From contig NZ_JAQZAN010000010.1 of the NCBI RefSeq assembly GCF_028737255.1, positions 62,001-126,000 of the forward strand: 64,000 nt of DNA. Reading direction: 5' to 3'. A model generated the notes under the pieces. The model did not search any database, was not told where the DNA came from, and saw nothing but the letters and a program-made list of their open reading frames with translations. Origin of the DNA: Actinomycetospora straminea. Its GTDB lineage: Bacteria > Actinomycetota > Actinomycetes > Mycobacteriales > Pseudonocardiaceae. The translations under genes and the position numbers were made by a program. How positions within the stretch are numbered: the stretch's first letter is position 1; each line of letters opens with the position of its first letter. Shown one piece after another: positions 1-15,197 of this stretch.

Positions 1-1199
1 CGCCTGTCCCCGGCTATCGCCGCGTATAGCTCGGCGAACACCGTCGACGTCGTCGCGCTGTCCGCCGACCAGGTCGTTGCGACGACGTGCCGGTATCCCG
101 TGTAGTGCAGCGCCGCGGCCAGGGTGATGGCCTCGTCGAGCAGGTCCACCCCGCCCACCGCCGTCTTGCACGCCGAGAGGCCTGCGAATTCTCCGCCGGA
201 CCGGCTCTGGGACAGGGCCTCGACGGTGAGCCGGGACCCGTGTAGCAGCAGCGCACCCTGCGACGGATCTGCCAGGTCCTGGTCGCCGTGGCAGACGAAG
301 TGCACCCAGCGATGCCGTTCGAGCTCGCGCGCGACGGCCGACGCGGTGGCCGCGGGCCCCTCCAACAGGGTGCAGTGGTCCGGACCGAAGGCTGCGACGA
401 GGGCCTCGCGCTCCGCGGTGCCGTCGAGCTCGGCCTGGCCACTAACCTTAGACGCGTCTACTAGCAGGAGCCGGCCGTCGGTGATCTCGGGGTCCTCTGG
501 CTCGACGCGCGGCCGCCGGGCGTCGAGGAGGGCCCGGACCGTGGGGGTATACGACGAGACGACCCGGTCAAGCACGGTCCGCGGGTCGGCACGGCCCTCC
601 GCCGCGTCCGCGTGGTGGCCTGCGGAGTGCAGTGGCAGGAGCGTGAGCGGCCCGGTCGGGCACCACCACAACCGCAGCCACTGAGCGGTCGAACGCTCGG
701 GCGTCATTGTGAGGCCTAGGGTTGTCAGGACGGGGTCCGCGATGGTGTCCCACATCCAGGCCTGGAGGTCAGTGAGCATCGCGTCAACCTCGTCATAGGC
801 CTCCTCCACCGCCTGGGCCGCGGCGAGCACGCGGGCCGCGGCGCCGCGCCCAGTGCCGGTCGCGGCTTCGGCGTGGGCCGCCTCCGCCGCCTCCGCCCGT
901 TGGAGGACCGTGAGGTAGTGGTTGGCACGTTCGGTCGCCGACTCGAGACCGAGCGCTGGCAGTGGAACCGGCGTGACCCCCTCGTGCTCGACGACGAGTG
1001 CGTCGCACTCCCACCGGCTGACGTTGATCACGACGATCGGCCCCGTACCCTTCGCGGGCCGCAGCTGCTCGGGCTCCGGCGCCCTTAGGAAGTCCGCGAA
1101 ACCGTCCTTGCCGCGCACCTCCTCGACGAGCTCGTCCCACTCCCTGGAGAGGGCCGCCCGCCGATCGGCGGCATTGTTCGCACCAGCCGGGTCGACCAT
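1..1199 (-). CDS. CHAT-domain (caspase-like) protein, C terminus off the left edge
   Basis: An uninterrupted minus-strand frame starts at an ATG at 1199 and runs off the window, so the C terminus is missing. The N-terminal helix SREWDELVEEVR, the strand PIVVINVSRWECDALVV, the motif HFVCHGD (His at about residue 304) and the motif LSACKT (Cys at about residue 344), followed by VGGVDLLDEAI and HVVATTWSA, are the hallmarks of the CHAT peptidase fold with its His-Cys dyad intact. CHAT proteases usually have N-terminal TPRs in the same chain; here the chain begins just before the CHAT fold. The TPR gene lies divergently 71 bases away. The in-frame codons upstream of 1199 offer no better start and no clear ribosome binding site is seen. 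Role by family: regulated proteolysis, often in conflict or cell-death systems; the target is unknown. Confidence 0.8.
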   Translation of the reverse strand, partial: MVDPAGANNAADRRAALSREWDELVEEVRGKDGFADFLRAPEPEQLRPAKGTGPIVVINVSRWECDALVVEHEGVTPVPLPALGLESATERANHYLTVLQRAEAAEAAHAEAATGTGRGAAARVLAAAQAVEEAYDEVDAMLTDLQAWMWDTIADPVLTTLGLTMTPERSTAQWLRLWWCPTGPLTLLPLHSAGHHADAAEGRADPRTVLDRVVSSYTPTVRALLDARRPRVEPEDPEITDGRLLLVDASKVSGQAELDGTAEREALVAAFGPDHCTLLEGPAATASAVARELERHRWVHFVCHGDQDLADPSQGALLLHGSRLTVEALSQSRSGGEFAGLSACKTAVGGVDLLDEAITLAAALHYTGYRHVVATTWSADSATTSTVFAELYAAIAGDR

Positions 1200-1270
1200 G
1201 ATCTGACAGTCGTGCGAGGTGCAACGGCCATTACAGTTCCCCGACCGGCGCCCTTGGCTGGCGGTGTTCG

Positions 1271-3784
1271 GTGACCTCAGGCACGCAGGACGAGCTCGTC
1301 GCCCTCCTCCAGGCGGCTGTCCGCAATGCGCCCGGCGGGGTGCTCACCGCAGCGTCGGAGCAAGCCGCCGACCAGCTCGCGGAGCTCCTGGGTCCGCCGC
1401 CCGCGGCAGACCCGCGCCTTGTCCATGCCCTCGCTGTTTTCCATCTGGCCCGGTTCCAGGCCCTCGACCTTCCGAAGGGCGAGGAGGACCTAGGGGCCGC
1501 GATGGCATATTTCTCCGCGCTCCACGACCGGTACCCGGAGCTGGTGCCAGAGAGCCTCCGGAAGTTAGTCGGCGTCTCTAGTCCTGAACCAGACGGCAGC
1601 GAACTGCTCCGCGCCGCCCTCGACCAAGGGGGCGACGGCGAGCTCCTCCGTGAAGCCGTCGCCCTGCTCCGGGCCGAGATCGACCATGAGCCCGCCGCAG
1701 CCCTCTACGCGAATCTCGGCGTCGCTCTCCGCGCGATGTTCGAGGAGACCGGAGACCGCGCACACCTCGACGACGCCGTCGAAGCTCTTACCCGCGCTGT
1801 GGACGCGGCGGACCTCGAAGACGAGAGCCGGGTGCTGTTCCTCTCCCAGCTCGGCGCGGCCCTGCGGGAGCGATCGGGCTTCGCCGACCGGGCCGCGGAT
1901 CTCGACGCGGCTGTTCAATACCACCGCGAGGCGACCGGCTTGGCCCGCGGAGCCGCCTGGCCGCCCGCCGCCCAGAACCTCGGCAACGCCCTCACCGACC
2001 TCCACCAGGCCACGGGGGACGAGACCGCGCTGCGGGAAGCCATCGAGGTGCTGGAGGCCGCCAGCACTGCGTCGTTGAACGTGACCTCTGCCAACAGCCT
2101 CGGAGTCGCCCTGCGCGCCCGCTACGACCTGCTCGGGGCCCTCCCCGACCTGGACCGCGCGCTCGGCTACTTCCAGGCCGGTGTTGACGCGACGAGCGCG
2201 GGCGACCCGACCGTGGTGCTCGCGGCGAACAATCTCGGCACTTCGTGGGCCGTGCACTTCGAACACAGCGGTCAGCTCGACGATCTCCGCGCCGCCGAGG
2301 CCGCCCTCCGGACCGCGCTCGACGCGACCGTCGAGCGTGCGGCGCTACGCCCGCTCATCCTTGGCAACCTCGCGAACGTGCTGCACAGCCGGTTCGAGGA
2401 GGAGGGCGACACGGCGCGGCTCGCGGAGTCCGTCGGGCTGCTCCGCGAGACTTCCGGGGCCACCGCTGACGACGATGCCGACCTGCCGATGCGGCTCACG
2501 AACCTCGCAGTCGCGCTGTCGAGCAGGTACGAGCGGTTCGGTACCGCGGAAGACCTTCGGGAGGCGATTGACACCGCCGAGCGGGCGGTCGAGCTGGTAC
2601 GCCGGCCTGGCGAGCGAGCCGCCCTGCTGGGGAACCTTGGCAATCTGAGGGCCACGGCGTTCGAGGTGAGCGGCGACCGAGTGGACCTCGACACGGCGGT
2701 CGCGGCGCTCACCGATGCCGTCGAGTCACTGCACACCACGCACCCGGACCGGGCCCGACACCTGAACAACCTTGGCCTGGTCCATCGGCAGAGCTTCGAG
2801 CGCAGCGGTAGCCCGGCCGACCTCGACCACGCGATTGCCGCGCACGAGGCGGCCGTCGCCATCGGGCCGTCAACCTCCGCCGAGCAGGGTGGGTACCTCT
2901 CCAACCTGGGTAGCGCCCTGCTGGCCCGCTTCCATGTCGACGAGGCCGGACCTGCCCTCGACGAGGCTATCGCCCGGTTCCGCCAGGCTCGCGCCGTTGT
3001 CGCGCCCGACCATCCCGATCGCGCAGGGGTCGAGGGCAACTTGGCCTCGGCGCTGATCACCCGGGCGGAGCGGGACGGCCCGGAGGCGGATGGCGACCTC
3101 GCCGAGGCCCAGACCGTCCTCGCGCAGGCGGCAGGCCGACACGACACCGACTATCCCGGGTCCGCCCTCACCGCCCTACACAGCGGACGATGGGCGGACC
3201 TGCGCTACCGCAGGCTGACCCGCGCCGATCACGACGCAACGGACGTCTGTCTCGACGGACTCGCGGCCTTCCAGCTCTGCGCGAGTGACGACCGTGTGCG
3301 ATTGTCGTCACGGATCGACGCGGCCCGGGGGGCGGCGTCGCTGGCACGACGAGCTGGCGACCTTGCGACGGCGGACGCCGCAGGCCAGGTGGTCCTGGCC
3401 CTACTGCCCTCGCTGGTCACGCTGGAACGCGAACGACCGGACCGCGAGCATCGACTCGTCGAGCTAGCGGGTCTTGGCGGCGACGCAGCAGAGGTCCGCC
3501 TCCGGCGCGGGGACGCCGAGGCGGCGCTCGCGTTGCTGGAGGGAAGCCGGGCAGTCCTCTGGTCCCAGCTCGTCGGGAGCCGCAGGCTGCTGGATCGGCT
3601 GCGCTCAGTCGACCCCGAGCTCGCTGCCCGGCTAACCACGCTCACCACACTCCTGAACAGTCCGCCCGAAATAAACCCGGCGTTGTCCGCGCGACGGACA
3701 GCCCAGCGCCGTCGCGCCGAGACCTACCGGGAGTGGCGGGCGCTCGTCGTCGACGCCGTCACGCGCCTGAGAAGGTCACCGTAA
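1271..3784 (+). CDS. TPR-repeat protein lacking a CHAT domain
   Basis: An 837-residue protein with a GTG start, made almost wholly of helical tetratricopeptide-like units. Repeats recur as NLGxAL/NNLG plus LDxAIxxxxxAV from about residue 140 to 620 (for example around ANLGVAL, QNLGNAL, NNLGTSW, LGNLANVL, LTNLAVAL, LNNLGLVH, LSNLGSAL). The C terminus carries the helical linker LLEGSRAVLWSQLVGSRRLL and ends in RRRAETYREWRALVVDAVTRLRR, the helix that normally leads into a CHAT fold, and then stops. It is therefore the TPR half of a TPR-CHAT protein. It shares a 71-base divergent promoter region with the CHAT gene. TPR solenoids act as sensors or protein-binding platforms; the partner is inferred to be the CHAT protein. 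Cytosolic: no signal peptide or membrane segment. Confidence 0.85.
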   Translation: MTSGTQDELVALLQAAVRNAPGGVLTAASEQAADQLAELLGPPPAADPRLVHALAVFHLARFQALDLPKGEEDLGAAMAYFSALHDRYPELVPESLRKLVGVSSPEPDGSELLRAALDQGGDGELLREAVALLRAEIDHEPAAALYANLGVALRAMFEETGDRAHLDDAVEALTRAVDAADLEDESRVLFLSQLGAALRERSGFADRAADLDAAVQYHREATGLARGAAWPPAAQNLGNALTDLHQATGDETALREAIEVLEAASTASLNVTSANSLGVALRARYDLLGALPDLDRALGYFQAGVDATSAGDPTVVLAANNLGTSWAVHFEHSGQLDDLRAAEAALRTALDATVERAALRPLILGNLANVLHSRFEEEGDTARLAESVGLLRETSGATADDDADLPMRLTNLAVALSSRYERFGTAEDLREAIDTAERAVELVRRPGERAALLGNLGNLRATAFEVSGDRVDLDTAVAALTDAVESLHTTHPDRARHLNNLGLVHRQSFERSGSPADLDHAIAAHEAAVAIGPSTSAEQGGYLSNLGSALLARFHVDEAGPALDEAIARFRQARAVVAPDHPDRAGVEGNLASALITRAERDGPEADGDLAEAQTVLAQAAGRHDTDYPGSALTALHSGRWADLRYRRLTRADHDATDVCLDGLAAFQLCASDDRVRLSSRIDAARGAASLARRAGDLATADAAGQVVLALLPSLVTLERERPDREHRLVELAGLGGDAAEVRLRRGDAEAALALLEGSRAVLWSQLVGSRRLLDRLRSVDPELAARLTTLTTLLNSPPEINPALSARRTAQRRRAETYREWRALVVDAVTRLRRSP

Positions 3785-3905
3785 AGCGCACCGGGCCTGG
3801 AGGACGTTCGCTCCCACTCAGAGTTGGTGATCGTGCGGGCGGCCAGTAGGTTCAGAGAGGAGATGCGTCAGCGGGTCAGCCGGGTGGCTCGTGCTCGGCT
3901 AATAC

Positions 3906-4370
3906 TTACCCTCCAAGAAGGTCTCGTGCCCCGGCGATGAACGCGCTCCGCTTGGTCTCGTACTGGAGTTCTCGGACCTCCATATCGGCCTTGTCGCCCG
4001 CTTCGCGGAGGACGTCGATGTATGCAGCCAGCCCACGGGCTGCAGAGTGGAGAGACGGATCGCCAATCACGAGCATGAGCCGCGCCTGCGCGCTCTCTGC
4101 TGCGGCCCCACTACGGTCCGCCTCCACCATCGCTGAGCGCCATTCCTCTCCCTCCTCTTTGCGGCGAAACCACGCGGTGATGGCGGCGCGCTTCAGCTCG
4201 GCTATAGCGGTCAGGAACTCACTGCACGCCAGCAAGCGCTCTTGTCTCAGTCGCTCTTCTCGGGCCGCTCTTTCGGCGCGAGCCGCAGTGCGACGTTGGA
4301 AGAGGTACGTCGACAAAGAGCCGAGCAATGTACCCGCCACTGCAATCAAGCTGGTTGCTATCCCGCCCAT
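3906..4370 (-). CDS. Small membrane-anchored coiled-coil protein
   Basis: A 154-residue protein when started at the internal ATG at 4370. That start places the single membrane segment (GIATSLIAVAGTLLGSLSTYLF) at the extreme N terminus, as in similar actinobacterial small proteins; a longer reading from 4427 adds an unlikely 19 residues. After the membrane segment comes a strongly charged coiled coil (RRTAARAERAAREERLRQER), then an alpha-helical cytosolic domain ending ARDLLGG. No catalytic motif is visible. It lies convergent to the TPR gene with 120 bases between and next to the integrase scar, so it may belong to the mobile segment or to the TPR/CHAT locus. Function unknown. Confidence 0.65.
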   Translation of the reverse strand: MGGIATSLIAVAGTLLGSLSTYLFQRRTAARAERAAREERLRQERLLACSEFLTAIAELKRAAITAWFRRKEEGEEWRSAMVEADRSGAAAESAQARLMLVIGDPSLHSAARGLAAYIDVLREAGDKADMEVRELQYETKRSAFIAGARDLLGG

Positions 4371-4727
4371 GAGCAGATCATGGAGGACCTGCCGGCCTCG
4401 ACCAACCCCTGCACACCTCTCCGACATACTATCGAGCCCTGGTGCGCCCCTCGTTCACTTCGCAGCCTCAGCAGGCGGACGCGCACGAGAACGTCGATCA
4501 GTGGCTTTGAGCCAAACGACGACTTCCGGTCGCGCACGGCACACGTGCCCGTCGGACAGCCGGACCCGACACGCCAGCACCGGCGGGAGGGCCCGCTTTG
4601 GGTACCGCTTACGTCAACCCATCGCTCGACACAGGGCTCGATCACTCATGATCGAGACCAGCGGGCTCCATCGCTGACCAGCACGAACGCTCACCGCATC
4701 ACACGACTGCGGACGTGACTCTCGTCC

Positions 4728-5404: not shown

Positions 5405-5587
5405 ATGGCTTCAGTTCGACGTGGAGTTGTCGCCGCTGCTTTGATCGCAGCTGCAACTCTCGGTACCGCTGCGCCGGCACTCGCCAGCCCTTCCCCGCCG
5501 ACCAATGGCGGAAATGGTGCTGGGCAGAGCGGCCAGTGCACTGGCCCGGCCGCTGACCGACCGGCGTCCTGCCAGTCGTCGAAGTAA
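5405..5587 (+). CDS. Small secreted peptide, 60 residues
   Basis: The ATG at 5405 follows a strong ribosome binding site (GAAGGAGG at 5393-5400, 4 bases before the start). Residues 1-28 form a classical Sec signal peptide: basic start MASVRRG, hydrophobic core VVAAALIAAATLGTAA, and ALA cleavage motif. The mature peptide of about 32 residues is rich in Gly, Pro, Ser and Gln and has two cysteines (SGQCTGP and ASCQSSK), which could form one disulphide. No domain is recognised. It lies between the two tRNA-end copies, so it was probably carried by the former mobile element. Could be a secreted signal, a small toxin or a cell-wall peptide; function not assignable. Confidence 0.7.
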   Translation: MASVRRGVVAAALIAAATLGTAAPALASPSPPTNGGNGAGQSGQCTGPAADRPASCQSSK

Positions 5588-5983
5588 AAGATCGGCCACA
5601 GAGCGCGACCGACTCCAAGACAGCCCTGCAATCAGGTCGGTGCGAGCTACGGCCTCCGTGGGACTCCCGGGTCGCGAGCCGAGCCATCCCTCTGCGGCAT
5701 CGCTTGCTGAGGGGGCATGGCCTTGGCTCTAGCGATCCGGGACTTCTCATGAGGTGTCGGCGCAACAAGTGGGGATTTGCGGGGCCTGGGTGCTCCATAG
5801 TGCTTCTGTTCCCTCATTCGACATCTGCCGCGACTCGGAGAAGAACCTCACGGCCGAGCCAGAACCACGCCTGGCGACACTTGCACGCGAACCCTGAACC
5901 CGCCGTAGTGCCGAGCTCGAGCAGCTTGAGATCAGTTGACCCGAGGCCTCGACGCTGCTATCCGCCTGACCGAACATGGTTAC
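5588..5983. other. Intergenic stretch, nothing recognised
   Basis: About 400 bases between the small secreted peptide gene and the DUF1330 gene. Codon-position composition is irregular on both strands and I see no gene, hairpin or repeat in it. Confidence 0.4.
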
Positions 5984-6313
5984 ATGAGTCAGACCACAGA
6001 CTCCGAGTCCTCCGGTAACTACTACATCCTCTTCGACGTCGATATCCGGAATGGCGAGCGCTACCGCCGCCACATGGAGCGAGCCCGCCCTGCCCTGGAA
6101 GCCGCCGGTGGCCGGCACCTCGTACGAGGGGGCAACTTCACGGTGTACGAAGGGGACTGGACCCCCTCGCGACTGGTCTTCTTGGAGTTCCCATCCCAGG
6201 AAGCGTGGGAAGCCTTCTACTACGGGCCAGACTACGCAGAGATCAAACCGGCCCGCGACGAGGTCTCTGATGGACGAATGGTCGGAGTACAGGGCCTGAC
6301 GCCGGGTACGTGA
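5984..6313 (+). CDS. DUF1330 family protein
   Basis: A 109-residue protein from the ATG at 5984. The upstream in-frame ATG at 5936 adds 16 residues without family similarity. The pattern YYILFDVDIRNGERYRRHMERARPALEAAGGRHLVRGG then VYEGDWTPSRLVFLEFPSQEAWEAFYYGPDYAEIKPARDEVSDGRM is the full DUF1330 fold, a dimeric alpha-beta ferredoxin-like barrel related to the Dabb/EthD proteins. The C-terminal segment PDYAEIKPAR is the most conserved part of the family. No enzymatic role is established for DUF1330. It stands alone inside the segment bounded by the tRNA-end copies. Confidence 0.85.
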   Translation: MSQTTDSESSGNYYILFDVDIRNGERYRRHMERARPALEAAGGRHLVRGGNFTVYEGDWTPSRLVFLEFPSQEAWEAFYYGPDYAEIKPARDEVSDGRMVGVQGLTPGT

Positions 6314-6525
6314 GAGTGGCCGCGCTATGCAGCACAGGTACAGGCACGAAGGCCCGGATCGCGCCTCGCGCTGAGCAAGGTCGACCCAGAAAGTACCCGT
6401 GAGATTCGTCCAACGACGGTCCAGAAGCAACCGCGACTGCGCGAAGGGTCATGCGCCGGTCTTCTCAGGTAGGCCTCGATGTCAGCGACTCGTCGGTGAC
6501 ATCGAGGAAGTCGCCGTCGAGAATC

Positions 6526-6558
6526 ACTGGGTTCGGGTTCGAGTCCCTGACGGCGCAC
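6526..6558 (+). repeat. tRNA 3'-end fragment, attachment-site-like copy 2
   Basis: Thirty-three bases identical to 4728-4761 except for one missing G before TTCGAGT. The T-arm and the acceptor strand ACGGCGCA are kept, but the CCA continuation of copy 1 is replaced by CTC. The bases just upstream (GAATCACTGGG) extend the resemblance to a tRNA anticodon 3' arm. The two copies in direct orientation 1.8 kb apart fit the ends, or successive insertions, of an element that used a tRNA 3' end. Confidence 0.6.
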
Positions 6559-7258
6559 TCTCTCTACTGAGCACAGCCCTGCGGCGATCTTCGGAGTGAC
6601 TCCAGACCGGTCCGACGGGCCGTTTACTTCCGAGCGCACCCGTTGTAGACGCTCAGATGTCCTGGCCAGTGCTCGACTTGGCTCGCCCTGATGCGCCCAC
6701 AGATCCGTGGATGGCAGCCGCGCTTGACGACGCGGACTCGCTGCCGTCCTTGCCGGACGTGGGGCTAGGACGTTGCGCAACGTATTCCACGCTCCTGGTC
6801 GGCTCCAACGCCGCAGACGACCCCCTCCCGCCCCGTACCGATGGCCGACGCCGACGTCGACGGCCAGGTGCAGCGATCACCCTCGACAGCAGGCTTGACG
6901 GCGACCCTGCCCACCCGGGGGTGCGATGGGCCAGGACGACGATCGAGAAACCCGCGCACCCGCCTGCTCGCTGGCCCGACGGAGCGGCGGGCCACCGCAG
7001 GCGGTCGGCATCGAACATCCCCGGCTCCGGTCAGGGGGACGGATGTCGACACCCTCCTCGGCCGACGTGAGGTCCGGAGAAGGACCCGCGCAGACCACCC
7101 CCCACCGACTGCTTCCACGACTTGCTGTTCCTCCAAGCCGCGCACGCCCCGACGGGAGGAATGGTGCTGACGGGCACCGCTTCTCGGCTGTCGCTGCGCT
7201 ACCTTTTTTCCGGTGGCTTCCTCTCGGTTGGAGGCCGCGCGGTGAGGGATGTGGCGAG
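6559..7258. other. Gene-poor stretch, nothing recognised
   Basis: About 700 bases before the SPFH gene. Several frames are open on both strands because GC is high, including one continuous with the SPFH gene from 6926, but none shows protein-like composition, a ribosome binding site or a known motif. Confidence 0.4.
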
Positions 7259-8209
7259 ATGATCGTTGCCCTTGCGCTCTGTGCCGCCGTTCTCCTGGTG
7301 GCCGCGACGCTGGTCGGAACGAGCATGCGGGTCGTCCGCCAGTACGAGCGCGGAGTCGTGTTCCGGTTCGGCAGGGTGGAGCCCGGCACCACGAGAGCGC
7401 CCGGGATCGTCCTGCTCTGGCCGTTCGCGGACCGGTTGACGAAGGTCAACATGCAGATCGTGACCCTGCCGGTCCCGGCGCAGGACGGGATCACCCGTGA
7501 CAACGTCACCGTGCGGGTCGACGCGGTCATCTATTTCCGGGTGGTCGATCCCGTCCGCGTGGCGGTGGACGTGCAGGACTACTTGTCCGCGATCGCGCAG
7601 CTCGCCCAGACGTCGCTGCGGTCGATCATCGGGAAGAGCGACCTCGACGATCTGCTCAGCAACCGGGAGAAGCTCAACCAGGGCCTCGAGCTGATGATCG
7701 ACACCCCGGTCGTGGACTGGGGCCTGCACATCGACCGCGTCGAGATCAAGGACGTCTCGCTGCCCGAGTCCATGAAGCGTTCCATGTCGCGTCAGGCCGA
7801 GGCCGAGCGTGAACGTCGCGCTCGCGTCATCACCGCTGACGGCGAACGTCAGGCGGCGGCGACACTCTCCGCGGCCGCGGAGACGATGTCGGACCACCCG
7901 GCCTCCCTGCAGCTCCGCCTCCTGGAGACGGTCGTGGAGGTGGCGGCCGAGAAGAACTCGACGCTCGTGCTGCCCTTCCCCGTCGAGCTGCTGCGGTTCC
8001 TCGAGCGCGTCACCCCCGAGGAGAACCAGGCCCCGACCGCGATGGATCGGGTCGCAGCAGGGTCGGCGCCGCCCCACCCCCTCCGGGATCTGACCGGGTC
8101 CACGGCACGAAACCGGTCGGGTCTCCGCTCGACGGCTCGCGTACCAGTTCGGCCACGAGCCCGGCCACGATCCCGGAGGAGGACACCGGCACGCGCGACC
8201 TGGAGGTGA
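7259..8209 (+). CDS. SPFH/Band-7 (slipin-like) membrane protein
   Basis: A 316-residue protein from the ATG at 7259; the frame is open further upstream but the extension lacks sense and would hide the membrane anchor. Residues 1-20 are one membrane segment (MIVALALCAAVLLVAATLVG). Next comes the SPFH domain: VRQYERGVVFRFGRV, PGIVLLWPFADRLTKVNMQ, then TRDNVTVRVDAVIYFRVVDP, typical of stomatin/slipin proteins. A charged helix (RQAEAERERRARVITADGERQAA) leads to the slipin end LVLPFPVELLRFLE. The last 60 residues are Arg/Pro-rich and poorly conserved in character, perhaps read-through past an ancestral stop. Role by family: membrane-domain scaffold; many relatives pair with an NfeD protein, not seen here. 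Confidence 0.85.
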   Translation: MIVALALCAAVLLVAATLVGTSMRVVRQYERGVVFRFGRVEPGTTRAPGIVLLWPFADRLTKVNMQIVTLPVPAQDGITRDNVTVRVDAVIYFRVVDPVRVAVDVQDYLSAIAQLAQTSLRSIIGKSDLDDLLSNREKLNQGLELMIDTPVVDWGLHIDRVEIKDVSLPESMKRSMSRQAEAERERRARVITADGERQAAATLSAAAETMSDHPASLQLRLLETVVEVAAEKNSTLVLPFPVELLRFLERVTPEENQAPTAMDRVAAGSAPPHPLRDLTGSTARNRSGLRSTARVPVRPRARPRSRRRTPARATWR

Positions 8210-8558
8210 CCCTGCCGGGGGCACGCATTGCCCGGCTCGCACGCACAGCGGTGCGTGGGCCGCCCAAGGAGGGCCCACGGGGGACACCGATCGGGCAGGT
8301 CTCGGCCTTCACCTCCAGAATGGGGACGGGGCTGTCGAGCAGGAGCCGCTGGGCGAGGCCGCCGAGCAACGCCTTGCTCACCGGCGCCCGCAAGACGTCT
8401 TTCCACCCACTCCATGGTGGCCGCATCGGCGTCCTGGTTCCGTTTCACAGCGTGTCACGCGTCTCAACCTCATGCTGAGCTTTAGGGTCCGCCCGAACCT
8501 CGCGGAGGGCAGTCCGCGCGGCGTCGGTGACCGTGCCAGACGACAGGGAGACCAAGAG
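8210..8558. other. Intergenic stretch
   Basis: About 350 bases between the SPFH gene and the first MW-family gene. The only signal is a possible universal-stress-protein fragment on the minus strand at 8292-8426. Confidence 0.35.
8292..8426 (-). pseudogene. Possible universal stress protein C-terminal fragment
   Basis: A minus-strand frame reads GWKDVLRAPVSKALLGGLAQ then RLLLDSPVPILEVKAE. This resembles the last helix and strand of UspA-type domains (a Gly-Ser-x-Ser/Ala-x-x-Leu helix followed by S-P-V-P-V-L-V-V). Nothing upstream on that strand continues the Usp fold and there is no start codon with a ribosome binding site, so at most it is a remnant. Could be a chance match. Confidence 0.25.
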
Positions 8559-9032: not shown

Positions 9033-9595
9033 TGGCGCGCGGCCGGCACTCCTGCCGACCGGTGCGGGCGACGCCTGACGTGCTCGGCAGACGAGCGTCG
9101 AGGGGCCGGTGAGCTGCCCCAGGGGTAGCCGGCGCTCGTCGTCGCACAGGTGCGCATTGATGCCCTGACCCCGTCATCGAGGTGCTCGATCCCCGGTCTC
9201 GTCGAGGAGTTCCGCAGCGTGTGGTCTTCGACCCGCCTTCACGCCCGAACAAGCACCACGACACACCCTCCCGATGGCAGCTCGACGACCCGGTCGGGGC
9301 GTGTCGGTAGTGGAGCAGTACGGGAGCAGCGGGCGGCCTGGCGGGCCGGACGACGCCGGCGGCCCGCGCGAGCATCGGGGACGGCCGCCGTCACCAGGGT
9401 GAACGTCCACTCGGCCGGATCATTGCGTCGTCCCGGATGTACTCGTGCCAGTCGAATGGTCGAACTTGCTCAGAGACTCACTCAGGACCGTAATCCCGGC
9501 GTGATGGAGGGCGACAAGTCAGCAACCCGCCACCCTCGGCGGGGCACCCAGGGAGGGGAGTCGGTCTGGCTGCCCTCATCGTCGTGGAGGTGTGG
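9033..9595. other. Intergenic stretch, nothing recognised
   Basis: About 560 bases without a convincing frame on either strand; no hairpin or repeat noticed. It includes the ribosome binding site of the next gene at its right end. Confidence 0.4.
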
Positions 9596-10048
9596 ATGGC
9601 GGTACGCCTCGAGGTCACCCGGACCGGACTGCGTGTGCACTTTTCAGGCCCCGACGTGCTCGCCGCGTGCTCGCGGGGGCTGTTCGTCCCCTACACGCGG
9701 GTCCTCGGGATCCGGGTGATGACACGAGCCGACGCCGTCGCCTCGAGCCCTCACCTTCCCTGTCCGGGCCTGTGGTGGTGGCAGCGCTACCGCGCCGGCT
9801 GCTGGGGAGTCGGTGAACGTCGCCAGCTCTGGAGCGCCCGTCTGGGCACAGACGTGGTGGTCATCTACCTCAGCGGCCGACCGTTCCATCGTGTGGTGGT
9901 GGAGGTCGACGAGCCCGAGCGGGCTCACCGGCGGATCGACGCGGCCCTGTTGCACAGCAAGAAGACCAGCCCGCGACGCGCGCTACGTGGTCACCGGCGA
10001 TCCTCCATCGAGCAATCCATCCCCGAGCCCGCCGGTGCCGACCGTTGA
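9596..10048 (+). CDS. Uncharacterised PH-like protein
   Basis: A 150-residue protein. The ATG at 9596 is preferred over the GTG at 9584 because GGAGG at 9586-9590 sits five bases before it. The sequence alternates strands and turns: MAVRLEVTRTGLRVHFSG, LVPYTRVLGIRVMTR (seen as LFVPYTRVLGIRVMTR), then GLWWWQRYRAGCWGVGERRQLW and DVVVIYLSGRPFHRVVVEVD, ending in a helix. That succession, with a WW pair and a closing helix, resembles bacterial PH domains, although I cannot name a family. No membrane segment is seen. The last 35 residues are Arg/Ser-rich. It lies between the two inverted MW-family genes. Function unknown. Confidence 0.6.
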   Translation: MAVRLEVTRTGLRVHFSGPDVLAACSRGLFVPYTRVLGIRVMTRADAVASSPHLPCPGLWWWQRYRAGCWGVGERRQLWSARLGTDVVVIYLSGRPFHRVVVEVDEPERAHRRIDAALLHSKKTSPRRALRGHRRSSIEQSIPEPAGADR

Positions 10049-10077
10049 CTTCGGTCCGGACTCGGTGGCCGATGGGT

Positions 10078-10893
10078 CTATGTGGATTCGCTGGACGTCG
10101 AGGCCCCTGATGCTGCTCCGATGGTGTTGAGATCTTCGCGCAGCGTCGGTTCGTCCCCATCGCGCGGCTTCAAGGCGTGTCGTCCGCCCTCGGCCGTCGA
10201 CGTGGCCAGCGGCCGGCGCCGCCGTTGCGCGCGACGCGTCAGTTCCTCGTCGATCGAGCGGTTCGGTGGCGGCACCATGCCCGCCGGGTAGACATCGCGC
10301 CCGCTCGCGTCCCGCGGACGCTGGACGGGCAACGGTCCTGACCCCGACCGGGGCTCGGGCACCCAGCCAGACGGAGCCCTCTCGCCGGAGGGCGCGACGC
10401 CCAGCACCTGGCGGCCGGCGACGTCGACGACCCGGGCGCCGCGCGGTGGGGGTGGCGGCACCGCAGGCACCGCTGGCAGATCACGGGTGCGGCCCGGGTC
10501 TCGCGGTCGTTGGACCGGCAGCGGTCCCGTTCTCACACGCGGCGCGGGCGCCCAGGCAACGTGATCCTCCTCGAGGGCGGGCGGGCTGCCCCGGCGATGG
10601 CCGCCGACGTCGTCGCGCTGGTGCCGCTCCCACTCCGACGCGACGGCCTGGAAGATCGGCGTCGGCTCCCAGTCGCCCCGCACTGTCGCGGATGATCCCG
10701 GCACCACGTCCTGCGCACACCCCCAGCGCTGCCCCGGCAGAGTCGGGTCCGGCACCGAGGTCCGGGACTCACTGGTACGCGGGCTTTCCGGTTCGACGAG
10801 CGGCCCCGCGTACGACGACGCCACGTGCCGGCTCTCGCCGCCGTACTCGTCGAGGCTCCGTCCTCCGACTGCGCCCCCCTGCCATTGCCACAT
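10078..10893 (-). CDS. Uncharacterised MW-family protein (copy B)
   Basis: A 271-residue hydrophilic, Pro/Arg-rich protein from the ATG at 10893, with GGGAGG six bases before the start. It begins MWQWQGGAVGGRSLDEYGGE and later has TPIFQAVASEWERHQRDD, both matching the plus-strand paralogue at 8559. A motif GPLPVQRPRD occurs twice, about 70 residues apart, so the longer protein includes an internal duplication of its disordered part. The segment GGRHALKPRDG near the end also has a counterpart in copy A. No enzyme motif or membrane segment is visible. Convergent with the PH-like gene (30-base gap). Confidence 0.55.
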   Translation of the reverse strand: MWQWQGGAVGGRSLDEYGGESRHVASSYAGPLVEPESPRTSESRTSVPDPTLPGQRWGCAQDVVPGSSATVRGDWEPTPIFQAVASEWERHQRDDVGGHRRGSPPALEEDHVAWAPAPRVRTGPLPVQRPRDPGRTRDLPAVPAVPPPPPRGARVVDVAGRQVLGVAPSGERAPSGWVPEPRSGSGPLPVQRPRDASGRDVYPAGMVPPPNRSIDEELTRRAQRRRRPLATSTAEGGRHALKPRDGDEPTLREDLNTIGAASGASTSSEST

Positions 10894-11375
10894 CTCCGGC
10901 CTCCCTTCGCCCCGCTCCCCCGTGGACCGCCGGTGCGCGTCGAGCTCCGCACCACGCGCCTCCGCCGCAAGCCCGGAACCATAAACCTCAAGATGACCTT
11001 GAGATGGGCGGGGTCGGGAGAGGCAGTCGATCACCACCCCGATGCGCCCACCGGGTGGTCTCGGGTCGCGCCAACCGCAGCAGGGAGCCCGCGCCCCGCG
11101 GCCGAGCGCGCTACGCACTACGGCGATACCACGGCCTGTGCGTCGGCGACCTCGTTCATGCGTCCACGTCCGTCTCCCCCTGGACACCCCGCCACGAGGT
11201 CGTCGAGCTACCCCAGAGCCTCCATCCCGAGCCGCACGCCCCGAACTACTACGCGGATGACCCGAACAGACCCCGGTGGGAACTCCGCTTGCACCCTCTT
11301 CGGCGTGGCGGGTAACAGCCACGACCGGTGCATGCGACATCGGACTGAACCACCACCGACGAACGGGGACCGACG
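10894..11375. other. Intergenic stretch, nothing recognised
   Basis: About 480 bases between MW-family copy B and a very small possible gene. Open frames on both strands here lack protein-like composition and ribosome binding sites. Confidence 0.35.
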
Positions 11376-11513
11376 GTGACGGGGACACTACTGATTGCCG
11401 CGGCGGCCTTCTCCCACGCGGCGCTCGGCGCGACGCTGTACGCCGTCGGCCACCGACGTGGCGCTCGACGACGACCGCCTCGGCGGGTGCGGGTCCAGCT
11501 GCATGGCCGGTAG
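11376..11513 (+). CDS. Possible single-span membrane microprotein, 45 residues
   Basis: A GTG at 11376 preceded by GGGGA opens a 45-codon frame ending in TAG. Residues 4-24 (TLLIAAAAFSHAALGATLYAV) form one hydrophobic membrane span. The rest is strongly basic (HRRGARRRPPRRVRVQ), which by the positive-inside rule would put the C terminus in the cytosol. No homologue is recognised. Composition is clearly that of a small membrane protein, but the size makes a chance frame possible. Confidence 0.35.
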   Translation: MTGTLLIAAAAFSHAALGATLYAVGHRRGARRRPPRRVRVQLHGR

Positions 11514-11770
11514 CTGACGGTCGATGTCCAGATCGTGACACCGGAGTGGCGCCGGACCGCTGGGCGATGACCGGGTGGAGCCTTGCGCTGTCGTGGCGCC
11601 CACCGGCGCGGGCTGGCTCACGGGTCACAGGAGCGGTCGAGGTCGTCGGTCACGGCCCCCGGGGTCCTCGGACGGATCGCCGGTGGCCATGCGGACCGGC
11701 AGACCCCTTCATGACCTCCTGCGGTCGCGAGAGCGGAGAACAGTGGTCGGGACGCCACGCCGCGCGGCCC

Positions 11771-12958
11771 TCAGCGGCCGGGCTCGTGGAGACCGAAGAT
11801 GAGGTAGGGGTCGCTCGGGTCCCAGCTGTTGTCCACCTGCGAGCGGCGTCCGATCTCGCGGCATCGCTCGAGGAGTCGGCGACCGAGGTCGAGCTGGGCC
11901 TCCTCCCAGGTCTTCAGGGCGGCCGGGATGTCGCCGCCGGCACCCTCGAGCGCGTCGGCGAGGGCCCATGCGTCGGCTGCGGCCTTGGCCGTCCCGGCCG
12001 CCGCATGGGGGCGCACCGCGAACGCTGCATCCCCGAGGATCGCGACCTGCCCCGCGGTCATCGCCGGGACGTCGATGTCGTAGACGGCCTGGACGAACGG
12101 CTCGCGCGCGCCGTTCACCACCTCCGCGATCGGTGGTGCGAGCTCCCGAGTTGCCGTGGCGCGGAACTCCTCGATGGCCTCGTCACTCAACATCCCGGGC
12201 GGCACGGACACTTTCCGCGGTTGGCCATCTCGACCGGCGAGCAGCCGGTCGAAAGGTGCGCCGGGAGCGACGTTGCGGTACCAGACGTAGTTGGACAACC
12301 GTTCGCCCGGCTGCACGGCCCCCCCAGGGCCCGGGATCGGATAGACGAGAACGTGGCTGTCGCGGATCACCTGATAGGTGATGGCGTCGCGCAGTTCGGC
12401 AAACGTCTCCGGGCGGAGATCCTCCTCGGGCACGGTGCCGCGATAGGCGACGTAGCCGGAGTAGCGCGACCGGGCGGAGGGGAAGAGCGTCTCGCGGGTC
12501 AGGGAGTTGATGCCGTCGGCGGCCACGAGTAGGTCGCACTCGTCGCGCGCCCCGTCGGCGAAGGTGATCTCCACACCTTCGTGGAGCTGCCGGAAGGACG
12601 TCATCTCGCGGCCGAGGTGGTAGCGCTCGGCGTCGAAGATTCGCAGCAGCTCCCGGTAGATGGCGTTCCACGAGGAGAAGCGGTAGTGGTGCTCGGCCTG
12701 GTAGCGGCGGGACCCGTCGGACCACAGATAGCGGATCCACCCGGTCCGGGAACAGAACGTGTCCGGGTCGACGGCGGTCCGCTCGCGGAAGTAGCGGATG
12801 GTCGCGTCGAGGACGGCGATCCCCGCCCCGCGGGCGTCGAGCTCGGATCGTGACCGCTCGTAGATGTGGACGTCACAGCCCAGATCGCCCAGCAGGAGGC
12901 CCGCCGTCAGACCCCCGATGGAGCCGCCGACGACGGCCACTCGTGGGTTCGAGCCCAT
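11771..12958 (-). CDS. FAD-dependent aromatic monooxygenase (UbiH/PHBH type)
   Basis: A 395-residue protein from the ATG at 12958. The Rossmann motif VVGGSIGGLTAGLLLGDLG with E at the end of the second strand (IYERS) binds FAD ADP. The motif ECDLLVAADGINS is the DG fingerprint and VAILGDAAFAVRPHAAAGTAKAAADA the GD motif, so all three class A flavoprotein hydroxylase motifs are present. These enzymes hydroxylate aromatic or related rings with NAD(P)H and O2. The start overlaps nothing but lies two bases after the stop of the PNPOx-like gene, so the two are translationally coupled. The substrate is not deducible; 2,6-dihydroxypyridine and hydroxybenzoate hydroxylases are among the relatives. 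Confidence 0.85.
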   Translation of the reverse strand: MGSNPRVAVVGGSIGGLTAGLLLGDLGCDVHIYERSRSELDARGAGIAVLDATIRYFRERTAVDPDTFCSRTGWIRYLWSDGSRRYQAEHHYRFSSWNAIYRELLRIFDAERYHLGREMTSFRQLHEGVEITFADGARDECDLLVAADGINSLTRETLFPSARSRYSGYVAYRGTVPEEDLRPETFAELRDAITYQVIRDSHVLVYPIPGPGGAVQPGERLSNYVWYRNVAPGAPFDRLLAGRDGQPRKVSVPPGMLSDEAIEEFRATATRELAPPIAEVVNGAREPFVQAVYDIDVPAMTAGQVAILGDAAFAVRPHAAAGTAKAAADAWALADALEGAGGDIPAALKTWEEAQLDLGRRLLERCREIGRRSQVDNSWDPSDPYLIFGLHEPGR

Positions 12959-12960
12959 CG

Positions 12961-13482
12961 TCAGGGACGCCCGAACGTCGCGATCTTGTCGACCGACAGC
13001 TCGAAGAGGATGCGGCTCTCGCCGACCGACTCGTCGCGCAACCCGTATGCGGAGTCCTGACCTGTATATTTCCGCCAGATTCGGTCGACCTGGTCCGTGA
13101 CGCGTTTGCCGTCGCTGGGGTGGTCCTCGGGGATCTCGCGGCGGACCGTGGTCTTGATCGATACCCAGTGGTAGGCGTTCTGCGGGTTCATCAGGAGGAA
13201 CGTCGCGTGCGGTGTCGCGCGCAGCCACTCCACTTTCTTGCGGTGGTGGGCGAGGTTGAGCAGCACGACCTCGCCTTCGTAGTCGAACCACACCGGCGTC
13301 AGATTCGGCAGGCCGTCCCGCCCCACCACCGCCACCGTCGCCGTGACCGGCTCGTCGAGGAGCTGCTTGTACATCGGGTCGAGATCCGCCAGCGTCGTGA
13401 TCGCCCCGCGGTCACCGACGGTGAACTGCCCGGGCTGCGTCCCTTCGGAGACATCTCGAATGTTGGCGACGACGATGCTCAC
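12961..13482 (-). CDS. Pyridoxamine 5'-phosphate oxidase-family flavoprotein
   Basis: A 173-residue split-barrel protein. DEPVTATVAVVGRDGLPNLTPVWFDYEGEVVLLNLAHHRKKVEWLRATPHATFLLMNPQNAYHWVSIK has the order of a PNPOx/F420-binding split barrel: G-x-P-x-x-T-P-V-W for the cofactor loop, N-x-x-x-x-x-K-x-x-x-L for the phosphate-binding helix and the late WVSI strand. Actinobacterial members bind FMN, haem or coenzyme F420; which one is used here cannot be told. It is the first gene of a two-gene unit with the FAD monooxygenase, so it may supply reduced cofactor or act on the same substrate. Divergent from the TPP enzyme gene. Confidence 0.8.
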   Translation of the reverse strand: MSIVVANIRDVSEGTQPGQFTVGDRGAITTLADLDPMYKQLLDEPVTATVAVVGRDGLPNLTPVWFDYEGEVVLLNLAHHRKKVEWLRATPHATFLLMNPQNAYHWVSIKTTVRREIPEDHPSDGKRVTDQVDRIWRKYTGQDSAYGLRDESVGESRILFELSVDKIATFGRP

Positions 13483-13625
13483 GGTGGGCCTCCCGGTGGC
13501 GGTGCTGGTGGATCACCTCGAGGCGAGCGTAGGTTTCCGTGATCCAGGGCACAACGCCGTCGCCCTCCCCGCGAACGGAGCGCCACCGCAGCGATGCCTT
13601 TCTCGACACGTCGTCAACGGCCTCC

Positions 13626-15197
13626 GTGGTGACCGTCGGTCCGCGTGCCCTCGCCACCGCCCTCGTCCGCGCCTGGCGCGATGCCGGGACCTCGGTGCTG
13701 TTCGGAGTCCCCGGTGGCGGAGCAAACCTCGACGTCGTCGGAGCGGCCGCGGAGGACGGCATCCGCTTCGTCCTGACCCACGACGAGACCGCGGCAGGGA
13801 TCATGGCCTCCACGCACGGGCTGCTCACCGGCACGGTCGGCGCGGCGGTGGTCACCCGTGGCCCCGGAGCGACCGCCGCCGCCACCGGACTCGCCCAGGC
13901 CACGCTCGACCGGTCCCCGCTCCTGCTCGTCAGCGACACCGTTCCGGAGCGGTCAGCTGCCCGCGTCGCGCACCAGCGCATCGACGAGCAGGCCATGACG
14001 CGACCGATCGCGAAATGGTCGGGGACTCTGGGGACAGAGAACCCGGCACAGGTCGCGGCCGCTGCTGTCGGTCTTGCTCGTCGAGGACCGGCCGGCGGGG
14101 TTCACCTGAGCATGGACCCGACCGCCCCTGGCAGCTCGCCGCCACCGTCGAGCGCGGACGCGGCCCTCGACGAGGGTGCGACGGATCGAGCTTCCGCGAT
14201 GATGACCCGGGCCAAGCGCCCCGTCGTCCTCGTCGGCCTCGCCGCAACAGACCATCCGGGCCTGGCCGACGCCCTGCTCGCGACGGGCCTGCCCGTCCTC
14301 TGCACCTACCAGGCCAAGGGCGCCGTGCCGGATGCCCGCTCCGCGGGCTTGTTCACCGGAGGAGTGCTGGAGCGCCCGCTGCTGGACCGAGCCGACATCG
14401 TCCTCGCGGTCGGCGTGGACCCCGTCGAACTGATTCCAGCTCGCTGGCCGTACGAGGCGCCCGTGGTCATGCTGCATCCCGAGCCGGTGGACGGCAGCTG
14501 GTTCGGCGACCCGGAGATCGTCGTGGGCCCCCTCGCGACCACCCTTCCCACCGTCCTCGGCGACGCGTTCCACCGTTGGGAGTCGGGCACGGCCGAGGAC
14601 GCCCGCCGCGAGGCGCTCGACACGCTCGAGACCGGCGGTGGCGAGTTCGGGCCCCATGACGTGGTGCGCGAGGTTGCGCGGGCGGTCGGCAGCTCGACCA
14701 CGCTGACGGTCGACGCCGGCGCACACATGCTGGTGGCGATGCCGTTCTGGGAGGCGACGGCCCCCCGCCGGGTCCTGATCTCCAACGGCCTGGCGACCAT
14801 GGGGTTCTCGCTGCCCGCAGCGGTGGGCGCGGCGCTCGCCCGCCCCGGCTCTCCCGTGGTGTGTTTCGTCGGCGACGGCGGACTGGGGATGACCCTGGCT
14901 GAGCTCGAGACGGTCGTCCGGCTCGATCTCGACGTCACCGTCGTGGTCTTCAACGACGCCGCGCTCAGCCTCATCGAGATCAAGCAGACTGACGGGCAGG
15001 GCGACGCGAACGCGGTGCGCTATGGGACCACCGACTTCGCGGCCATCGCCTCCGGCATGGGGATGCGAGCCACGATCGCGGAGCACCGGCAGGCGCTCCG
15101 GCACGAGCTCGACCAAGCCCGGACGGGCCCTCGCCTGATCGACGTCCGCATCAGCCCGGCCACTTATGCACACGTCCTGACCGCCACCCGGGGGTGA
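13626..15197 (+). CDS. TPP-dependent decarboxylase/synthase (acetolactate synthase-like)
   Basis: About 523 residues from the GTG at 13626; the frame is open back to a GTG at 13539, but the extra 29 residues lack similarity and would leave only 56 bases for the divergent promoter. Domain order is Pyr (LFGVPGGGANLDVV, catalytic Glu in LTHDETAAGIMA), central domain (around KRPVVLVGLAA) and PP domain with the TPP/Mg motif GDGGLGMTLAELETVVRLDLDVTVVVFNDAALSLI (about 15 residues shown by key points GDGG and FND). Relatives include acetolactate synthase, benzoylformate decarboxylase and sulphoacetaldehyde acetyltransferase. It stands alone, opposite the PNPOx gene, so a catabolic 2-oxoacid decarboxylase is more likely than valine synthesis. 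Confidence 0.85.
   Translation: MVTVGPRALATALVRAWRDAGTSVLFGVPGGGANLDVVGAAAEDGIRFVLTHDETAAGIMASTHGLLTGTVGAAVVTRGPGATAAATGLAQATLDRSPLLLVSDTVPERSAARVAHQRIDEQAMTRPIAKWSGTLGTENPAQVAAAAVGLARRGPAGGVHLSMDPTAPGSSPPPSSADAALDEGATDRASAMMTRAKRPVVLVGLAATDHPGLADALLATGLPVLCTYQAKGAVPDARSAGLFTGGVLERPLLDRADIVLAVGVDPVELIPARWPYEAPVVMLHPEPVDGSWFGDPEIVVGPLATTLPTVLGDAFHRWESGTAEDARREALDTLETGGGEFGPHDVVREVARAVGSSTTLTVDAGAHMLVAMPFWEATAPRRVLISNGLATMGFSLPAAVGAALARPGSPVVCFVGDGGLGMTLAELETVVRLDLDVTVVVFNDAALSLIEIKQTDGQGDANAVRYGTTDFAAIASGMGMRATIAEHRQALRHELDQARTGPRLIDVRISPATYAHVLTATRG

Follow-up and report, generated by a model that had tools for sequence, protein, structure and literature searches.

The 64,000-nt stretch of DNA analysed here (the window; negative positions lie left of window position 1) overlaps a locus, labelled L003, that, on a narrow balance, we read as encoding a putative TPR-CHAT protease made of several subunits, of the kind found in conflict systems: CHAT would dock in trans on TPR arms and work together with a zinc-ribbon-like protein (ZnR) and a membrane protein (TM). 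The caspase-like CHAT enzyme often shares one chain with its sensor; here the enzyme, two sensor-like arms, ZnR and the membrane protein are separate. The locus is not a one-off split gene. Its features are listed below.

1199 to -111 (1..1199 inside the window; L003:5889-7199), minus strand: stand-alone CHAT protein (caspase/separase-like), predicted protease subunit, 436 aa, start ATG at 1199
288..290, minus strand: codon of presumed catalytic His304 (HFVCHG), from alignment with Craspase TPR-CHAT
168..170, minus strand: codon of presumed catalytic Cys344 (LSACKT), from the same alignment
1110..1166, minus strand: linker helix at the CHAT N-terminus, DRRAALSREWDELVEEVRG, by sequence similarity
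1200..1270: intergenic region of 71 bp between the divergent start codons, from the ORF starts
1271..3784, plus strand: TPR1, CHAT-less TPR protein, 837 aa (TPR_10, E 7.4e-12)
3533..3634, plus strand: pre-CHAT helices of TPR1, LLEGSRAVLWSQL...PELAARL, proposed CHAT docking end (pre-CHAT HMM, 75 bits)
3707..3760, plus strand: relic linker helix close to the end of TPR1, RRRAETYREWRALVVDAV, resembling the CHAT N-terminus by sequence similarity
-443..-132, minus strand (that of CHAT): ZnR, 103 aa, named from its cysteine pattern
-1087..-440, minus strand (that of CHAT): TM, conserved membrane protein, 215 aa
-3966..-1084, minus strand (that of CHAT): TPR2, second CHAT-less TPR protein, 960 aa, ending with pre-CHAT helices

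The CHAT protein belongs to Pfam family PF12770 (117.3 bits, E 1.1e-33; cut-off 24 bits), and its fold, with intact His and Cys, is present on the minus strand where the first-pass annotation had placed it. In a local phmmer alignment (E 0.0017), His304 and Cys344 lie opposite H585 and C627 (own residue count) of the Craspase TPR-CHAT, whose catalytic residues are those named in PMC9729208. Both the catalytic His and Cys are kept in all related loci compared, 46/46 split and 45/45 fused (91/91). Similarity among stand-alone CHATs begins at the linker helix. A continuation of the gene upstream of 1199 with TPRs of its own, which the first-pass annotation had raised as a possible objection, is excluded because an in-frame stop lies upstream and there is no earlier start codon. 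GC3 is 0.87 for CHAT and 0.84 for TPR1.

TPR1 was also correctly described at the outset as an 837-residue CHAT-less TPR protein on the plus strand, 71 bp from the CHAT start, and a Pfam search found no CHAT domain in it. Both TPR1 and TPR2 end with helices that run straight into CHAT in fused relatives; in TPR1 these are followed by an additional linker-helix copy. The two proteins match each other and, at E ≤ 1e-3, nothing outside the cassette in the window's genome. On the CHAT strand the order is CHAT, ZnR, TM, TPR2, three of the four genes lying left of position 1. CHAT and ZnR are 20 bp apart, and the next two junctions overlap by 4 bp each; the four genes appear to form one operon. A stand-alone CHAT, a junction-ending CHAT-less TPR, ZnR and TM genes are thus all present at this locus.

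ZnR and TM, both unnamed, are likely the business end of the system. ZnR probably binds zinc, judging from its sequence. In the TM model (mean pLDDT 80, pTM 0.56), three long helices accompany a C-terminal domain of five strands; the membrane topology of TM is a guess from hydropathy, which is clear for two segments and weaker for the first helix. Only the C-terminal domain gave fold matches, all weak and all to small beta-barrels: the best E value, 1e-3, was for Hfq, and the structural matches were to the biotin ligase C-terminal domain (Z 8.0) and Hfq (Z 7.4). Neither ZnR nor TM has been assigned a family name, and in two plasmid records, where an HMM recognised them, they are called ‘hypothetical’. 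No PHROGs family was found for four proteins of the set, and no NCBIfam model scored over its cut-off among the proteins of the window's genome. The first-pass annotation had named a small membrane protein as a possible cleavage target. That frame, at 3906-4427, has a best match of E 0.022 among frames of at least 90 aa in the other 90 loci and was dropped; the conserved membrane protein is the one at -1087..-440.

The comparison set comprised 91 related loci, 46 with a stand-alone (split) CHAT and 45 with a fused CHAT. Six loci (L010, L011, L012, L013, L017 and L021), taken to be the same as L157, L094, L161, L163, L099 and L156, respectively, were left out as duplicates before counting, as was the fragment L020, while L019 was entered as fused despite its broken frame. 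The fetched regions (80 around matches) are part of all matches, and the genome sets searched overlap. Of the stand-alone CHATs, 42/46 have within 9 kb a CHAT-less TPR gene that stops at the CHAT junction, against 0/45 of the fused ones; the former count includes L153, assigned by eye, the first automatic rule having given 39/46. Protease and TPR protein therefore do occur together as separate genes, as had been supposed, and the idea that relatives of the two genes never co-occur is refuted. The contrast is not phylogenetically independent: well-supported branches provide 4 independent pairs, of which 3.6 on average run in the expected direction (sign test, p 0.125). Among 64 TPR partners, 61 end a median of 7 aa past the junction.

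ZnR occurs exactly where TM was scored present, in 17/46 split and 15/45 fused loci (32/91), and in 0/59 of the others; L117, L156 and L174, with weak partial TM matches of at most 59 bits, were scored absent. The pair is absent in 29/46 of the split loci and is therefore not required by all stand-alone CHATs. Two close pairs of loci have CHAT-ZnR-TM in common as one DNA block, and their TPR genes are different and located elsewhere. That the enzyme set is kept and the arms differ in some related bacteria suggests a mix-and-match alarm system. Several other close pairs keep their TPR arms, so arm exchange is not universal.

The conserved divergent co-occurrence expected by the first-pass annotation holds for co-occurrence and fails for orientation: the neighbouring TPR gene is divergent in 8/46 stand-alone CHAT loci and tandem in 7/46, so divergence itself is not conserved. 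Besides the window, the divergent loci are L009, L014, L150, L164, L183, L184 and L185 (the last assigned by eye), and the genomes that carry two of these, G965 and G938, consist of a single contig; L187, divergent but with its genes ~1.26 kb apart, is outside the eight. Candidate start-to-start gaps range from about 0 to 260 bp, with start choice uncertain, and a scan confined to sigma-70 found no sigma-70-like site in 1100-1400. One promoter serving both genes by design, as first proposed, finds no support in these counts, gaps and scan.

That proposal belonged to a fuller account, in which one TPR-CHAT gene was split by inversion, with a shared promoter and activity regained by re-assembly of that pair. 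The divergent pair is real, and in the CHAT tree (73 rows, omitting L019 and fused rows below 230 bits) the window's CHAT has the fused L006, L148 and L149 as weakly supported neighbours. Yet the linker helix is present in both TPR1 and CHAT, which speaks against simple fission, the locus has two TPR arms instead of a single one, and the tree needs 8 changes to account for the eight divergent rows, well-supported branches forcing no fewer than 6 of these. Nor does the DNA around TPR1 look like an invertible switch: among 24 inverted-repeat pairs within 900-4000, the one bracketing TPR1 (1261-1277/3773-3789, 17 nt, 82%) does not stand out from the others in this G+C-rich stretch. We regard a split by inversion as improbable; because TPR1 keeps its own linker-helix copy, a fused paralogue that lost its CHAT part is the better fit. 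Poorer still is the case for an assembly artefact, a mis-joined or frameshifted TPR-CHAT gene. Although the genome is a draft (56 contigs, 98.96% complete), a frameshift is excluded because CHAT and TPR1 lie on opposite strands, and seven other loci share the divergent layout, including those on single-contig genomes; we give this explanation almost no weight.

The CHAT-less TPR genes could instead be decayed TPR-CHAT paralogues with no role for CHAT, neighbours by descent and not partners. The relic linker helix in TPR1 and in the partners of L097 and L181 would suit such decay, as would the 5/64 partner frames below 400 aa and the grouping of some partners with fused proteins in the pre-CHAT tree (136 columns, 108 rows), which is mostly poorly resolved, including where TPR1 groups. 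However, all 64 partner frames are open (149-1716 aa between stops), 61 have the uniform end, none lies beside the 45 fused CHATs, and TPR2 falls in an all-CHAT-less group of six loci (the window, L009, L094, L157, L161 and L187; SH-aLRT 98). Decay thus seems unlikely, if a little less so than inversion. The rival we take most seriously is a securin-like restraint, in which the TPR proteins inhibit or scaffold a constitutively competent CHAT and their removal, not a linker signal, frees the protease. Separase in securin complexes is among the fold relatives, and separate, partly exchangeable partners would be as fitting for inhibitors as for sensors; against this, the TPR genes end at the cis junction of fused relatives, in which restraint and activation must both come from a single chain. 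We put the chance of such restraint at about one in five.

In the favoured multi-subunit reading, stand-alone CHAT would dock in trans on the C-terminal helices of TPR1 or TPR2, as it does in cis in fused relatives; the pre-CHAT HMM that marks this end was built from 24 fused proteins only. The TPR superhelix may bind a trigger, either an invader or a stress signal, and the trigger-bound TPR would move the linker and so set the His-Cys pair. The activated protease would then target the ZnR/membrane-protein pair at the membrane or act by way of it, the outcome most likely being a conflict response, anti-phage or self-limiting. CHAT activity would accordingly need assembly with TPR, and we infer that the arms are exchangeable around CHAT. 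Possible, though somewhat short of even odds, is the wider proposal of a portable CHAT-ZnR-TM core for killing or signalling, with CHAT-less TPR proteins as plug-in sensor arms that share a docking end and are gained, lost and exchanged, so that several triggers feed one caspase-like switch per cell.

A conflict setting is suggested because a few relatives adjoin CATRA or TCAD9 genes and the spread is sporadic: 2/18 genomes in the genus, the second with a remote fused CHAT, and 10/390 in the family at E 1e-74. The case for defence is indirect, since none of CHAT, TPR1, TM, TPR2 and a 173-aa neighbour matched a PADLOC-DB family at E ≤ 0.1, and the CHAT is absent from phage records. No literature on the cassette was found among the matches listed, which covered titles and abstract openings of CC-licensed PMC articles. 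If the arms are swappable, the pairs L093/L150 and L007/L183 would be direct records of arm swaps. Arm exchange around a fixed protease core would then be a bacterial counterpart of exchangeable receptors feeding one executioner. A machine also built as separate parts would open its docking surface and activation step to study by mixing subunits.

Among known systems, CATRA (Pfam CATRA-N/C, ‘CASPASE and TPR Repeat-Associated’) is tied to caspases and TPR repeats, judged by Pfam name alone, and CATRA proteins adjoin the stand-alone CHATs of L152 and L158. The founding paper is reportedly that of Burroughs and Aravind in 2020. CATRA-N (PF20269) has 0 matches in the window's genome and occurs in 6/13 genomes searched; at the window's locus CHAT, TPR1 and TPR2 are separate genes, an arrangement that the Pfam name may suggest for CATRA too. 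Separase-securin shares the superhelix and the caspase-fold protease, and the separase protease domain aligns with residues 602-1069 of a fused relative's model (5fc3_B: Z 22.6, 3.7 Å over 324). Separase, however, is eukaryotic, a single chain, and acts on another substrate in another domain of life.

Craspase TPR-CHAT (Csx29, of type III-E CRISPR) shares the CHAT fold, the His-Cys pair, the TPR superhelix and the linker, and both Csx29 and separase align with the fused relative's model across TPR, linker and CHAT (7y9x_B: Z 29.1, 6.0 Å, 573 residues). Its junction, with pLDDT block means of 44 to 61 (residues 621-700), was too uncertain for a docking surface to be read from it. In Craspase the signal travels via the TPR-CHAT linker, according to PMC9729208. 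Csx29 is one chain, whereas the window has separate genes on opposite strands, and the Csx29 model NF041237 scores 34 bits against an NCBIfam cut-off of 300. The neighbours also differ, those at the window's locus being ZnR and the membrane protein. A type III-E system would have gRAMP/Cas7-11 and a CRISPR array nearby; among frames with GC3 above 0.75 in the 15 kb around the locus, the longest has 1230 aa and is that of TPR2. Also close are the fused actinobacterial TPR-CHAT proteins followed by ZnR-TM (L006 from Lentzea, L016 from Streptomyces tibetensis, L102-L104, L148 and L149), which have a homologous CHAT (57% identity between the window and L006) with ZnR and TM downstream. There, TPR and CHAT form one chain with no CHAT-less TPR gene nearby, whereas in the window they are separate genes.

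The cassette is a separated form of TPR-CHAT, and probably a multi-arm one. Within the 6.29 Mb host genome the window covers 62001–126000 of contig C1, and part of the cassette lies to its left (negative positions).

Genes of the cassette
1199 (start) to 111 bp left of the window, minus strand: CHAT, the stand-alone caspase/separase-like protease, 436 aa
1271 to 3784, plus strand: TPR1, divergent CHAT-less TPR protein, 837 aa
−443 to −132, minus strand, as CHAT: ZnR, 103 aa, so named from our reading of a zinc-ribbon-like cysteine pattern
−1087 to −440, minus strand, as CHAT: TM, membrane protein, 215 aa
−3966 to −1084, minus strand, as CHAT: TPR2, second CHAT-less TPR protein, 960 aa

The first-pass annotation described CHAT, on the minus strand from 1199, and TPR1, on the plus strand at 1271–3784, as two genes, and our analysis confirms both. 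CHAT does not extend upstream of 1199 into TPRs, as the in-frame stop ahead of the gene is followed by no start codon before 1199. The Pfam CHAT match has an E-value of 1.1e-33. The histidine and cysteine noted earlier are present, and are retained in 91 of 91 loci. In a sequence alignment, His304 and Cys344 lie opposite H585 and C627 of the Craspase TPR-CHAT protein (Craspase numbering counted in the alignment), the catalytic residues named in the passages of PMC9729208 used here. The spacings along CHAT–ZnR–TM–TPR2 are 20, −4 and −4 bp. Pfam gave nothing above cut-off for ZnR or TM. Across seven TM relatives, 47 columns are invariant, two of them cysteines towards the C-terminus, and one relative is predicted to fold into three long helices plus a C-terminal domain of five strands. 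In a medium-confidence model, the C-terminal domain of the TM protein at L006:8581–9231 (residues 157–208) is akin to small β-barrels (biotin ligase C-terminal domain, Hfq/Sm). TPR1 and TPR2 are each other's sole matches in the genome (E ≤ 1e-3). The genome also encodes a second, remote CHAT-like protein (G000:C3:97492–98001; L004 4391–5434, minus strand; 347 aa, 47 bits) whose sequence contains HFSGHG and LNACYS.

The CHAT search matched 2/18 genomes of the genus (E ≤ 1e-20; one is the window's own), 38/394 of the class (1e-40) and 44/397 of the order (1e-50). By family group, matches were found in 10/390 genomes of f1, the window's own (1e-74), 30/350 of f3 (1e-74), 6/35 of f20 (1e-60), 4/200 of f19 (1e-74) and 6/200 of f21 (1e-74); named genomes contributed 17 loci. 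The analysed set comprises 91 non-duplicate loci, 46 with a stand-alone CHAT (split) and 45 with TPR and CHAT in one chain (fused). CHAT-less TPR genes ending at the junction were detected with an HMM built exclusively from 24 fused proteins and covering the region that directly precedes CHAT. By the first automatic rule, such a gene occurs in 39/46 stand-alone versus 0/45 fused loci (Fisher 7.5e-19, relatedness not removed). Within 9 kb the count is 42/46 versus 0/45, bearing out the co-occurrence of both genes' relatives; this includes L153, scored by eye because 12 copies of an eight-residue unit interrupt its pre-CHAT motif. Four tree-independent contrasts ran in the expected direction in 3.6 of 4 on average (p 0.125). 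No partner was scored in L007, owing to ~890 extra residues after the motif in its TPR protein, or in L100, L172 and L186, where the locus is cut short on one side. Stand-alone CHATs have no partner (n = 4), one (n = 23), two (n = 15) or three (n = 4), and arms within one locus share 25–39% identity (27 pairs, local alignments). The octapeptide repeated in the L153 protein (5432–8269) is EIADSAAR, absent there in the near relative L154. In the L007 protein (9491–14638), the residues after the motif include no CHAT and Pfam finds weak TPRs only; it is possibly an alternative effector.

The junction bears on how the two genes arose. Similarity of the stand-alone CHATs to the window CHAT begins at helix DRRMALAREWDELV, with the strongest deviations in L100 and L175. 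Nine divergent loci were checked, and in each a start codon is available 0 to 48 bp ahead of the aligned start, counting the nearest one; the annotated start of two plasmid CHATs coincides with, or slightly precedes, the aligned start of this linker helix. Of the CHAT-less partners, 61 of 64 terminate a median of 7 aa past the pre-CHAT helices; the other three (TPR1 and one each in L097 and L181) extend into a linker-helix relic. In the window the linker helix is therefore present in both CHAT and TPR1, which favours a history in which a fused paralogue next to a stand-alone CHAT lost its own CHAT part, over a single gene cut in two. The earlier proposal of one divided TPR-CHAT gene is thus disfavoured: two separate genes were correctly observed, and their interpretation was right in part only. 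On a 73-row CHAT tree the fused or split state has to change six times, with fused rows nested in split groups (L165; L006, L148 and L149; L102–L104). The window CHAT clusters with fused L006, L148 and L149, weakly (bootstrap 96, SH-aLRT 27). The eight divergent rows of the tree require eight changes, at least six of them forced by well-supported branches.

ZnR and TM co-occur in 17/46 split and 15/45 fused loci, and ZnR is found in 0/59 others; three loci with weak partial TM matches were scored as lacking TM. Eight fused f3 loci have ZnR and TM oriented convergently to CHAT, with a TM match that ends before the C-terminal domain. CHAT and TM have similar identities in four compared pairs (L093–L150, 83% and 83%; L007–L183, 70% and 75%; window–L006, 57% and 56%; window–L009, 48% and 49%), and the TPR arms do not follow. 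Between L093 and L150, a single DNA block is shared (84%, 2308 columns), which begins just ahead of CHAT and finishes with the TM gene; the comparison spanned 19.5 kb and gave no further block above 80 columns at E ≤ 1e-5. The L093 arm lies downstream on the same strand and the L150 arm upstream and divergent; they are distant relatives (32% over 462 aa). At the DNA level, block limits are the same for L007–L183. No arms are common to L014–L162 (CHAT 84%) or L152–L158 (CHAT 75%). Arms are retained in L153–L154 (92%), L159–L163 (81%) and L098–L099 (61%, 58%), and in part in L157–L161 (two of three) and L014–L164 (one, 68%). Arms therefore differ in some close pairs but are retained in others.

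TCAD domains are part of predicted ternary conflict systems. Three split cassettes (L014, L162, L164) lie beside a large protein, assigned to TCAD9 by Pfam in L014 and by similarity in L162 and L164; NTPase matches in the L014 protein are weak and below cut-off. CATRA proteins adjoin two further split cassettes, identified by Pfam in L152 and by similarity and a CATRA-N search in L158.

Predicted conflict-system proteins beside stand-alone CHATs
L014 8190–13586, minus strand, with counterparts in L162 and L164: large TCAD9 protein, possibly including a P-loop NTPase, encoded downstream of CHAT
L152 7040–8722, minus strand, and L158 10677–12329: CATRA-N/CATRA-C proteins, both loci without the ZnR–TM pair

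In the passages of PMC8195603 used here, CATRA is predicted to be a ternary conflict system. CATRA-N has no match in the window's genome. More CATRA-N proteins occur in genomes with stand-alone CHATs, at G567:C37:166196 and 178595 (~14 and 26 kb from CHAT) and, far from it, at G965:C1:4855761 and 7245970. Related CHATs, fused or not, are on 29 plasmid records; no phage record matches the CHAT. Two plasmid records were examined around the match: the Streptomyces plasmids L188 (NZ_CP043960.1) and L189 (NZ_CP108058.1) carry CHAT, ZnR and TM in that order. The next gene encodes a CHAT-less TPR protein with a pre-CHAT match in L189, and an 842-aa protein without one in L188. Near TPR1, a 173-aa protein (3906–4427, minus strand) has a single hydrophobic segment at its N-terminus, a charged stretch, and no good match beside related cassettes. 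An SPFH/Band 7 (stomatin-like) protein lies at 6926–8209 on the plus strand (Pfam E 2.8e-37, residues 136–307); its listed start is probably too early.

For the fused relative L015 (1069 aa), the predicted structure has good confidence over most of TPR and CHAT and low confidence at the junction. Csx29/Craspase (Z 29.1, 6.0 Å over 573 residues) is among the best structural matches to this model, as is separase (Z 22.6, 3.7 Å over 324). According to the same passages of PMC9729208, RNA in Craspase sits between TPR and linker, linker and CHAT shift by up to ~26 Å, and the dyad distance goes from ~7 to 3 Å. By analogy, CHAT would dock on the C-terminal helices of the TPR proteins, the TPR arms may act as sensors, and the ZnR–TM pair could be a substrate or membrane outlet. 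Our literature search found no paper on a CHAT–ZnR–TM–TPR cassette. TPR-CHAT is already known as a kind; the separated cassette is a new variant of it.
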